DNA of 64,000 bases from Aurantiochytrium sp. KH105. Its lineage: Eukaryota; Sar; Bigyra; Thraustochytrida; Thraustochytriidae. The notes below the pieces were generated by a model. The model was not told the origin of the DNA and did not search any database. It saw only the letters and a list, made by a program, of their open reading frames with translations. The stretch's first letter is position 1; each line of letters opens with the position of its first letter. Below, in pieces: positions 3,731 to 6,766 of the stretch. Position numbers and translations under genes: made by a program. Location: the NCBI GenBank assembly GCA_003116975.1, contig BGKB01000040.1:310001-374000 (forward strand), read 5' to 3'.

Positions 3731-6700
3731 ATGGCGCGCAAGGCGCTCTGGGCGACAGCCATCGTCGCTGCGTGCGTCGTCGCGGGCGCAGCCAGCTCCG
3801 AGACGCTGGAGGGCCGCCATGCGGCATCGTCAACGTCAACGGCGTCGTGGAGCGACGTGCTCGTCTCCGACGAGAGGCTCAAGACCAATGTAACAAAGGC
3901 AGACACCGCGACGCTTCTCGACGCGGTGAGCCGCGTGCAGCTGCGCGAGTTTGATTACGTGTATGAGCAGTTCTATAATCCGATCTTCGGCAAGCGGCAG
4001 CTAGGCATCATCGCTCAGGAGATCAAACCGCTGCTGCCAGGCTCCGTTGGAGTTATTCCCAAGCGGTCCGTCAGCCATGTAGATGACAAGGACCCTACAA
4101 TCCTCACCAACGTTCACGTCTTTCATAGCGAAAACCTCTTCATGGCTCACATTGGCGCCACGCAGGAGCTGATTCAACGGACGCAAACCGCACGTAAAAC
4201 CCTCGAGGACGTGCAGGACAGCTTGGAGCGTCTGGCGCAGGACGCTACATCGGGAAAGGAGGCACATGCGGCGCTTAGCTCAATGCGGACCAAGCAAGAC
4301 GAGCTCGAAAATCTTGCCAAGGCCGCTCACGAGCGAAGCGAGGGCGCCATTCGGCTCGAACATGTCCTCAAGTCGCTGGAAGACACGAGCCGAAAAGAGC
4401 AAGCGGAGCGCACGGCACTCACGCGGCGCGTACAGGACCTTCACGAAGACTTGCGCACTGAAGTTCGAGATCAGGCGACGTTGCACCGTGACGTATCGAG
4501 TGAAATGACGGCGCTGGCCGAGGGACTCAAGCAGCTTGGGGCTCGCATCGACGAGAACCTTGTCCAGGTGCAAGCGGCGCAAACAAAAGTCAGCGAGAAT
4601 ATTGCTCAAGTTTCTCGCGAGGCCTCGGAGATCGCGCGAAAGCAAGTCGAGGAAGCTCGTACGAAGATTGACGCCAAGCTCGCTGATTTCGCGCGGGACA
4701 TGGCCGCAAGCCTCGAAAATGTAGAAAAGAAGCTTGCAAGCGAGCGCAAGGACGCTGCAGCTGCTGTCTCTGCCTTGGAGAAAAGTGTCGCGGGCCTTAA
4801 AGCTCAGATTGAGGCCAACGTTGCAAATGTAGACAGCCTTTCGCGCGAAGTTGGTTCTCTTCAATCGAGTCTTGGCACCGTGGCAGCAGATGCTGCACGT
4901 AATTTGAGCGAGGCACGAGGGGAAATTTCGCATGCTTTTGAACAAGCCAGTAGCGAGCTTGATGAACTACGGACGCGCATTGACGATCTAGAGACCAAGG
5001 TCAATGCACAAGCAGGCGCAGAGCTAATCGAGCGTCGGAAGATCGCGGAGGCCGAGGCACGCACCGAAGAGGCCAAGATTGAGCTCGAACGAACGCGGAC
5101 CGTGGAGGAGGAAAAGCGTGCGCGCTCCCTGGCAGCCATCGAAGTCGAACGTCTTGAGCGACAAGAGAATGCCACGCTTGCCCGCGTTGAAAAGGAGGAA
5201 GAGGCGCGCGCTGCTCGCGAGCTCAAGGTCGCCATAGCGCAAGAGGAGGCTGCGCGTCGCGAGTTCGAGCGTCGCGCTGACCACGAGTCGAGCCTTGTGC
5301 GCGCACAGGCTGACGCGGAGGTGTCAAAGATTCGAGCGCAGAGTGAGCTTGAGCGCGTGCGCGTCCTGGCGCAGGGCGAGGCCGATGCACAGCAAGAACG
5401 AGCCAATCACGAGCTTCGCAAAGAAATGGCCGCGCTCGAGTCACAAAGTGCCCGTGAGAACACTGTGGCGGCGATTCAAGCCACCTTCCAGGAGACGATC
5501 GCAGCGATGCGCATGGCGTCGCAGAGTCCTCAGGACGTTGCTGGTGCACTGGGGCTCTTTGTTCTCTTGGCCTTTGGCGTGTACGCGGGTCGCGAGTTCG
5601 TCATTTATTGGCGCAAGGTCTTTGAGCATAGGCTCGGACAGCCTTCACTTGTGCGCGAAACCTCGCAGCGTGGATGGCTACCTGTGGCTTATCTTGTCGA
5701 GGCGGTCAAGACTGCAACGAAGCGCACCCGAGCGCTCGGGATGCGAATGTGGTGTCGTCAGCTCGGCCGCGGCAAGGATACTGATGCTGCAAGCACGTGC
5801 AAAAAGGCTTCCATCTCCACTTCCTCCTCCTCCTCATCATCGTCATCCTCTTGTTCATCGTCGGGTGAGGCTGCCTCCTCGCCCCCAGGTCGGCCTGGAG
5901 CGAGAAGCAGCGGCCAGCCCACAGGCGAAGACTCCTTTGTGAGCTTTATGACCGACGTGGTGCTACCTCCGTCGCAAGCCAAACAGATTGAACGGGTCGC
6001 GCGTGCAACGCGTGCTGCTCACGTGAATGGCACGCCATTGCGCCATCTTCTCTTCTATGGCCCACCGGGAACCGGCAAGACTATGGTCGCGCGACGACTT
6101 TCCAAATGGTGCGGTCTGGATTATGCAATCATGAGCGGTGCCGATGTTGCACCTCTTAAAGATCGCGCCGTCACAGAGCTGCATCAGCTCTTTGAGTGGG
6201 CCAAACGCACGCCTCGTGGCGTCGCGCTCTTCATTGATGAAGCTGATGCCTTCTTGGCGACTCGCGACGGAGGCTCGATCAGCGAGTCCCTTCGGAATGC
6301 GCTCACCGCGTTGCTCTATCACACAGGCGCGCCCTCGTGCCGCATCATGCTTATTTTGGCTACTAACCGACCGCACGATCTCGACAGCGCCGTGCTAGAT
6401 CGCGTTGACGAGTCTGTGCACTTTGATCTTCCATCGCTCGGCGAGCGTAGGCGAATTGTGCGACAGTACTTTGCTCAAACCCTCGTCGCGTCATTGGATG
6501 TTCCTCCTGAATTTGCGCAGGAAGAAGCGCTTGAGCGCACTGCCGAGCTCACGGATGGCTTCTCGGGCCGTGAGATTGCAAAGCTCATGACGAGTGTTCA
6601 AGCACATGTTTTTGGCAGCGCTGTCGTCCAGGACGACAACATGGGCGAACCTCGTCGCGCCAAGCTTTCGCGAGCGATATATGACCAAGTGCTCGGCCAC

Positions 6701-6766
6701 ACTGTAAAGGAGCACGCTGCGAAGGCTCCAGTGCTTGAAAAACTGTCCAAGGCGATGTCAAAGTGA
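3731..6766 (+). CDS. ICA (peptidase S74/MYRF-type) domain fused to ATAD3-type AAA+ ATPase
   Basis: A single exon encodes 1011 residues. Residues 1-23 are a hydrophobic signal or targeting segment. Residues ~44-150 match the intramolecular chaperone auto-processing domain of endosialidase tails and metazoan MYRF: SDERLK at 46-51 supplies the Ser46/Lys51 dyad in the same spacing as MYRF, followed by the GIIAQEIKPLLPGSV segment and a terminal helix. Residues ~150-600 are coiled coil, the later part (from ~435) being the ATAD3-type Glu/Arg-rich region. A transmembrane helix lies at ~606-625, followed by the ATAD3 signature LGQPSLVRETS. After a Ser-rich linker (~697-725) comes the AAA+ domain: Walker A GPPGTGKT at 777-784, Walker B VALFIDE at 831-837, and the ATNRPHDLDSAVLDRVDE sensor region. 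ATAD3 is normally a hexameric inner mitochondrial membrane ATPase linked to nucleoid and cristae organisation. The ICA domain predicts trimerisation and self-cleavage just before Ser46. Start chosen at the first ATG of the frame. Confidence 0.9.
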   Translation: MARKALWATAIVAACVVAGAASSETLEGRHAASSTSTASWSDVLVSDERLKTNVTKADTATLLDAVSRVQLREFDYVYEQFYNPIFGKRQLGIIAQEIKPLLPGSVGVIPKRSVSHVDDKDPTILTNVHVFHSENLFMAHIGATQELIQRTQTARKTLEDVQDSLERLAQDATSGKEAHAALSSMRTKQDELENLAKAAHERSEGAIRLEHVLKSLEDTSRKEQAERTALTRRVQDLHEDLRTEVRDQATLHRDVSSEMTALAEGLKQLGARIDENLVQVQAAQTKVSENIAQVSREASEIARKQVEEARTKIDAKLADFARDMAASLENVEKKLASERKDAAAAVSALEKSVAGLKAQIEANVANVDSLSREVGSLQSSLGTVAADAARNLSEARGEISHAFEQASSELDELRTRIDDLETKVNAQAGAELIERRKIAEAEARTEEAKIELERTRTVEEEKRARSLAAIEVERLERQENATLARVEKEEEARAARELKVAIAQEEAARREFERRADHESSLVRAQADAEVSKIRAQSELERVRVLAQGEADAQQERANHELRKEMAALESQSARENTVAAIQATFQETIAAMRMASQSPQDVAGALGLFVLLAFGVYAGREFVIYWRKVFEHRLGQPSLVRETSQRGWLPVAYLVEAVKTATKRTRALGMRMWCRQLGRGKDTDAASTCKKASISTSSSSSSSSSSCSSSGEAASSPPGRPGARSSGQPTGEDSFVSFMTDVVLPPSQAKQIERVARATRAAHVNGTPLRHLLFYGPPGTGKTMVARRLSKWCGLDYAIMSGADVAPLKDRAVTELHQLFEWAKRTPRGVALFIDEADAFLATRDGGSISESLRNALTALLYHTGAPSCRIMLILATNRPHDLDSAVLDRVDESVHFDLPSLGERRRIVRQYFAQTLVASLDVPPEFAQEEALERTAELTDGFSGREIAKLMTSVQAHVFGSAVVQDDNMGEPRRAKLSRAIYDQVLGHTVKEHAAKAPVLEKLSKAMSK

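Follow-up and report, generated by a model that had tools for sequence, protein, structure and literature searches.

An ICA domain fused to an ATAD3-type ATPase in Aurantiochytrium sp. KH105 points to a second branch of the ATAD3 family that looks secretory

In a 64,000-nucleotide stretch of the genome of the thraustochytrid Aurantiochytrium sp. KH105 (contig BGKB01000040.1, positions 310,001 to 374,000; the whole stretch is called the window here), a single open reading frame on the plus strand (positions 3731 to 6766) runs from ATG to stop without a break. It encodes a protein of 1011 amino acids in which an ICA domain, the trimerization domain known from MYRF and phage endosialidases, precedes an ATAD3-type AAA+ ATPase. 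Our reading, which we hold to be on balance the probable one, is that this protein belongs to a second, old ATAD3 subfamily of the secretory pathway, most likely of the endoplasmic reticulum (ER) membrane, with a lumenal, trimerizing ICA domain and a cytosolic AAA+ motor, and that the subfamily cleaves itself at most in some lineages.

The original prediction, made from the letters of the window, had proposed that an ICA domain and an ATAD3-type protein are joined in one unbroken 1011-codon frame. This was borne out by the frame itself and its Pfam matches to Peptidase_S74, ATAD3_N, and AAA, all above the respective cut-offs (Table 1), by a second allele, and by a protein of Hondaea fermentalgiana. 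When the 76-Mb assembly (367 contigs) was searched, ATAD3_N matched at four places: two copies of the fusion with the same architecture (1011 amino acids on contig C40, the contig of the window, and 1006 amino acids on contig C64) and two copies of a 598-amino-acid canonical ATAD3. Judging from their near-identity, we read the fusion pair and the canonical pair as alleles. The Hondaea protein (P0001) shares the architecture and is 98% identical to the window protein; aligned with the C64 copy, it shows 3 differences in 1006 residues. Synonymous/nonsynonymous differences between the alleles numbered 6/0 in the ICA region, 31/10 in the coil, and 20/4 in the AAA part, a comparison by which the ICA part is under purifying selection. 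Against a further relative, P0002, residues 46 to 152 were the best-conserved part of the protein (97 of 107 identical, compared with 212 of 265 in the AAA part and 7 of 23 in residues 23 to 45).

Looked for in other genomes, as had been suggested with the prediction, the fusion was present in Hondaea and well beyond it. Two whole-length searches (the best 120 of 195 and the best 120 of 900) gave 223 distinct proteins, and precomputed Pfam assignments placed Peptidase_S74, ATAD3_N, and AAA together in 31 of them. Two of these, P0123 and P0211, are EukProt entries whose names look transcript derived, which favors a single transcript in those species. It is thus extremely improbable that the frame is an artifact in which two adjacent genes were merged by misassembly or by an overlooked intron: the second haplotype contig shows the same frame, Hondaea and many other relatives show the same build, and selection has acted across the ICA part. 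For practical purposes, we reject an assembly or gene model artifact.

A profile of the ICA domain, built solely from those rows of alignment A2 that bear the motif (19 in all), matched 110 of 225 sequences at an E value of ≤1e-6; the 225 are the listed 223 plus the window protein and the canonical ATAD3 of the host, and they include unrelated AAA proteins. Among the matches were proteins of named oomycetes (Phytophthora, Pythium, Saprolegnia, Aphanomyces, Albugo, and others; full-sequence E values of ~1e-14 to 1e-20), brown algae (Ectocarpus, Ascophyllum, Scytosiphon, and Hapterophycus; ~1e-11 to 1e-14), and one named diatom, Leptocylindrus (4e-8). None of the 25 canonical ATAD3 rows was matched, even at an E value of 10. 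Profile-profile comparisons gave a similar picture. The labyrinthulid-type group matched the oomycete-type group at 6.8e-24, the brown algal group at 1.5e-13, and the diatom-type group at 3.4e-18, and the weakest ICA pair (brown algal versus the CxxC type described below) matched at 1e-5, while the five ICA groups gave only 0.38 to 0.75 against canonical N termini. We ourselves assigned the labels labyrinthulid-type, oomycete-type, and diatom-type; the first fits by name only Hondaea and the window protein, and the last fits one of its four rows (P0196, Leptocylindrus). By these profile matches, the ATAD3 relatives of oomycetes, brown algae, and a diatom have a degenerate ICA domain, and the ICA-ATAD3 build is widespread and no peculiarity of this genome. 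That oomycetes, brown algae, and other protists have relatives of the same build suggests that the ATAD3 family includes a second branch which has been overlooked.

The domain itself most closely resembles that of MYRF. For residues 46 to 148, the closest solved structure in a sequence search of the PDB was the MYRF ICA domain (7dc3; E value of 3.9e-5), a match indicating more than chance resemblance. The original prediction had named comparison of a predicted fold with the MYRF ICA structure as a check, and in that comparison the predicted model of the window protein ranked 7dc3 first, followed by the endosialidase chaperones 3gw6 and 3gud. A model of a relative from Pythium oligandrum (P0148) contains a helix (residues 61 to 69), strands (73 to 77 and 87 to 91), a second helix (93 to 99), two further strands (104 to 113 and 120 to 129), and then a long helix; compared by order of elements, its residues 61 to 131 have the same succession of helices and strands as the window protein. 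When the whole P0148 model was submitted to Foldseek, the 50 rows listed were AAA+ entries, and VIA rows covered mostly residues 391 to 695, leaving the N-terminal domain outside. A search of viral folds in BFVD gave 227 matches at an E value of ≤0.001; the named entries among the best 50 were either phage tail/Peptidase S74 proteins or, in a few cases, proteins of eukaryotic viruses, a result that does not tell where the domain came from. Descent from a MYRF gene of the same genome was also considered and set aside: a search of the host genome for PF13887 and PF05224 gave no match, but the control genomes were likewise silent, so that absence of the gene is not established.

Ser46 and Lys51 stand 5 residues apart and align with S587 and K592 of MYRF, and the earlier claim that they are correctly spaced stands. 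S587/K592 of MYRF and S911/K916 of endoNF have the same 5-residue spacing, and MYRF cleavage is described as requiring both S587 and K592 (PMC8326128). Among relatives, the picture is more varied. With motif rows defined by aligned Asp47 and Lys51 (the window protein and P0001 both being counted), the catalytic segment was found in 35 of 110 ICA rows; 18 of these have Ser at the nucleophile position, 14 have Gly, 2 have Cys, and 1 has Ala. The aligned motif was absent from the other 75, including every oomycete and brown algal row of the set; Ser-x4-Lys occurs near the domain start in 5 of these, in none of them in the dyad columns. Altogether, either the Ser or the entire motif is missing from 92 of the 110 rows, and 5 of the 75 rows without an aligned motif are sequences cut near the N terminus. 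Where the segment takes the form [SC]DxR[LIV]K (11 rows), Ser was found in 9 and Cys in 2. A cut before Ser46 would release residues 1 to 45 or, after signal peptidase, only ~23 poorly conserved residues, although SW-x-DVLV, which adjoins Ser46, is conserved in P0002. The P0003 entry, in which the Ser is residue 21, starts with Val and may be incomplete. The equivalent of MYRF Y615 is Phe74, whereas R590, Y617, I637, and Q639 of MYRF are, by our reading of the alignment, kept as R49, Y76, I94, and Q96.

The proposal that autocleavage was the purpose of the fusion is weakened. The dyad is intact, and the window protein and its close relatives could plausibly cut themselves, but the remnant removed would be short and variable. 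Since the Ser or the motif is missing in most ICA rows, cutting is not what keeps the ICA domain across the family; by the motif counts, self-cleavage is no family trait and is at most a property of some lineages. A C-terminal triple coiled coil is described as the main driver of MYRF trimerization (PMC8326128), and the last ICA helix of the window protein enters a long coil, so trimerization of the coil is the likeliest shared function. By this analogy, assembly would be the likelier job of the domain family-wide.

Several features suggest that this assembly would take place in the secretory pathway. The N terminus of the window protein, MARKALWATAIVAACVVAGAAS, reaches a 12-residue Kyte-Doolittle mean of 2.50 and fits a secretory signal. 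When N termini reaching a mean of at least 1.9 within the first 60 residues were scored as signal-like (both this cut-off and the 90 of 225 rows being of our choosing), 25 of 32 motif-bearing and 30 of 35 degenerate rows qualified, that is, 55 of 67 ICA-type relatives, compared with 1 of 23 canonical proteins. N-glycosylation sequons were enriched on the N-terminal side of the membrane helix, both in 30 motif-bearing rows (68, versus 42.9 in shuffled sequences) and in 35 degenerate rows (77 versus 31.0, with 33 for the reversed motif); in neither case did any of 200 shuffles reach the observed count. No excess was seen on the C-terminal side (32 versus 38.4 and 37 versus 39.8, respectively). 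Three other types of Peptidase_S74 gene in the same genome also have N termini that look secretory by eye. Taken together, the signal-like N termini, the sequon bias, and the secretory look of the other S74 genes would argue for an ICA domain and coil on the lumenal side of the ER and a cytosolic ATPase. The ICA-ATAD3 family thus looks secretory rather than mitochondrial, and the mitochondrial setting originally envisaged, with assembly or import coupled to maturation, is not supported, given these sequence indications and the separate canonical ATAD3 of the host. One potential sequon, NVT (residues 53 to 55; window positions 3887 to 3895), lies two residues past Lys51 and recurs at this position in P0002; a glycan there would lie at the active site.

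The ATPase part also stands apart from canonical ATAD3. Like ATAD3 and ATAD3A, the window protein has the ATAD3_N coiled coil, the membrane helix, and the AAA+ module in the same order and carries the Walker motifs (Walker A, GPPGTGKT, residues 777 to 784; Walker B acidic pair, D836/E837), which a 28-row alignment shows to be invariant or conserved to 90% or more at these positions. However, its ATAD3_N match spans only profile positions 64 to 265 of 265; in place of positions 1 to 63 it has the hydrophobic N terminus, the ICA domain, and an additional coil. Because the match begins at position 64, the earlier description of a “full ATAD3 coiled coil” was inexact, while the match to the family holds. 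In a tree of the AAA+ and membrane helix part (96 of the 225 sequences, 317 columns, IQ-TREE), the 25 canonical rows, including the host's own copy (which starts MWPFGKKAEDE), formed one starred clade (97/91). The window protein fell outside it and grouped with P0002 and P0003 (100/94) within a set of 7 (100/99). Presence of the ICA domain required 5 changes on this tree (84 labeled rows, 53 with ICA, unclear rows left out). The root is not settled; we therefore claim a distinct line and neither a dated single origin nor a clade with a known root.

A number of observations weigh against our reading. The hypothesis that the 58 ICA-labeled rows (S, D, or W) form one clade against the other 38 was rejected (p-AU, 4.1e-55), because rows without a detected ICA domain, several of them N-terminally truncated, nest among ICA rows. 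Some named kin had a weak ICA match or none: Aureococcus P0076 gave an E value of 0.49, and of three short entries, P0175 (Phytophthora) gave 1.5e-5, P0183 (Ectocarpus) gave 4.4e-4, and P0189 (Phytophthora) gave none. A protein search with the ICA region alone (residues 25 to 165) returned 3 matches among 870 candidates; word seeding limits such a search, and the spread of the domain is therefore established by profiles on proteins already listed. Confidence in the fold model was moderate (pLDDT, 73.7; pTM, 0.54), with residues 18 to 44 below 50 and the block from 41 to 50 averaging 55. As to location, 12 of the 67 ICA-type relatives fell below our hydrophobicity cut-off, the reversed-motif control on the N-terminal side of the motif-bearing rows gave 50 sequons against 68, and canonical N-terminal sides leaned weakly the same way (18 versus 12.5 in 23 proteins, with 10 of 200 shuffles as high). 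Moreover, the sequences counted are related, and the shuffles overstate the significance of the sequon excess.

The closest competitor, which we regard as quite possible if short of probable, keeps the ICA domain as a purely structural trimeric cap, with Ser46 a relic and no cut in this species either. Replacement of the Ser by Gly, Cys, or Ala in 17 of 35 motif rows, with the remainder of the domain retained, would fit such a cap, as would the 75 rows without an aligned motif (the few Ser-x4-Lys occurrences there having arisen by chance or otherwise), the small and variable remnant, and Phe74 in place of a Tyr that is important for cleavage in MYRF (PMC8326128). Set against this are the eleven [SC]DxR[LIV]K rows, all with Ser or Cys, and the retained equivalents of four MYRF residues. 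The same rows, most with Ser, together with the intact and MYRF-like dyad, speak for the original scheme, in which ATAD3 is mitochondrial and its ICA trimer, by a cut before Ser46, matures the N terminus and so couples maturation to assembly or import; PMC13249166 describes the ATAD3 of humans and of Plasmodium as mitochondrial. We nevertheless judge that scheme unlikely, given the signal-peptide-like N termini across the subfamily, the sequon bias, the separate canonical ATAD3, and the loss of the dyad from most ICA rows. More doubtful still is a variant in which an ER-resident subfamily uses the lumenal ICA domain as an assembly sensor, with trimers cutting the chain off an N-terminal membrane anchor to license the cytosolic motor and lineages without the cut keeping the trimer as a scaffold.

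In the secretory reading that we prefer, a signal peptide would send the ICA domain and coiled coil into the lumen, a single membrane helix would span the bilayer, and the AAA+ motor would lie on the cytosolic side. The ICA domain would trimerize the coiled coils and thereby seed or hold the hexamer; arithmetically, two ICA trimers per ATPase ring would fit. In this lineage, Ser46/Lys51 may cut before Ser46 once trimers form, trimming a short N-terminal remnant, but the job retained family-wide would be assembly and not proteolysis.

Both known ICA systems offer partial parallels. Like MYRF, the window protein has a coil and a membrane helix downstream of an ICA domain with the same (predicted) fold and the same dyad spacing. 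Unlike MYRF, it has no DNA-binding domain (no Ndt80-type domain is among the 25 Pfam families listed for it at an E value of ≤1, and a search of the host genome that had no positive control gave none either), and because only 45 residues precede the ICA domain, there is no room for the stalk and cargo of MYRF. MYRF is a type II protein, and the window protein would have the opposite orientation if its N-terminal side is lumenal. The MYRF_ICA family of Pfam scored below its cut-off in the window protein (13.9 versus 24.1 bits) and matched 6 of 28 relatives at an E value of ≤0.01. Phage endosialidase and tail fiber chaperones share the Peptidase_S74 match, the dyad, and the fold; the ICA domain of phage endosialidase is C-terminal and removes itself after trimerization (PMC3742443), whereas that of the window protein is N-terminal and would remain on the ATPase. 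From ATAD3 proper, the window protein differs, besides its clade and N terminus, in its likely compartment.

No description of an ICA-ATAD3 fusion was found in the literature searched, which left most subscription journals out of reach; within that scope, the earlier statement that no such fusion had been described was upheld, widespread though the build is. In the literature surveyed, ATAD3 is a mitochondrial protein, and the Plasmodium study presents itself, to its authors' knowledge, as the first characterization of ATAD3A in unicellular organisms (PMC13249166). With a widespread paralog line that carries secretory signals, stramenopiles would have an ATAD3-type motor on a further membrane, linked to a trimerization domain that the literature treats in connection with phage spikes and MYRF. 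Loss of the catalytic motif by degrees, in proteins of a single architecture, also provides a natural test of whether chaperone or protease is the essential part of ICA.

Table 1. Features of the ICA-ATAD3 gene in the window
Feature	Window positions	Strand	Basis
Whole open reading frame, 1011 amino acids plus stop	3731..6766	+	Same frame in the other allele; Hondaea P0001
Residues 1-22, hydrophobic N terminus read as signal peptide	3731..3796	+	12-residue Kyte-Doolittle mean 2.50; boundary by eye
Residues 23-45, short variable segment ahead of Ser46	3797..3865	+	7/23 identical to P0002
Residues 46-152, ICA / Peptidase_S74 domain of MYRF type	3866..4186	+	Pfam 35 bits (curated cut-off 22); PDB 7dc3 E 3.9e-5; predicted fold match to 7dc3
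Residues 46-106, Pfam Peptidase_S74 stretch	3866..4048	+	Pfam
Ser46 codon, putative nucleophile	3866..3868	+	Aligned with MYRF S587
Lys51 codon, putative general base	3881..3883	+	Aligned with MYRF K592
Residues 133-595, long coiled coil extending the last ICA helix	4127..5515	+	Helix 133-184 from 185-residue model; remainder read from sequence
Residues 435-642, ATAD3_N	5033..5656	+	Pfam 53.6 bits (cut-off 25)
Residues 603-620, membrane helix inside the ATAD3_N match	5537..5590	+	Sequence, by eye
Residues 773-899, AAA+ ATPase	6047..6427	+	Pfam 83.8 bits (cut-off 21.2)

The other Peptidase_S74 genes of the host are of three kinds. Two secretory-looking proteins, encoded by a 1236-codon frame (L013, G000:C83) and a 434-amino-acid frame (L014, G000:C25), carry the domain at the C terminus, a phage-like arrangement, with the motifs SDARLK and SDRRWK. 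The third is an open frame of 14,562 codons (L015 to L019, G000:C159, ATG near 136843) with a counterpart on contig C208; it begins like a secretory protein, contains Gly/Ser-rich repeats, and has two ICA domains in its interior (SDSRIK and SDRRIK), both of which match the ICA profile over almost its entire length. These proteins share the S74/ICA domain and SDxxxK dyad with the window protein but are repeat rich and, in the parts read, have no ATPase.

A conserved Cys-x-x-Cys (NWLLQCSSCVDQ) stands immediately ahead of the ICA domain in 22 motif-bearing relatives (the P0011 to P0027 type), of which 14 have Gly and 8 have Ser at the catalytic Ser position. P0026, with Ala at that position, starts within the CxxC motif. 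A disulfide or redox role of this motif would be in keeping with a lumenal site. The CxxC relatives are metagenome and MMETSP/EukProt entries, for which a dinoflagellate identity is a guess. P0004, from a Durusdinium trenchii record (15.6-kb contig), clusters with the labyrinthulid-type rows and has Cys at the catalytic Ser position; the record may be a contaminant contig. Finally, four ATAD3-type proteins of 1260 to 1498 amino acids (P0046, P0048, P0049, and P0052), in which no ICA domain was detected, all carry PF19077 and PF19078, with PF24517 or PF25174 in one each.

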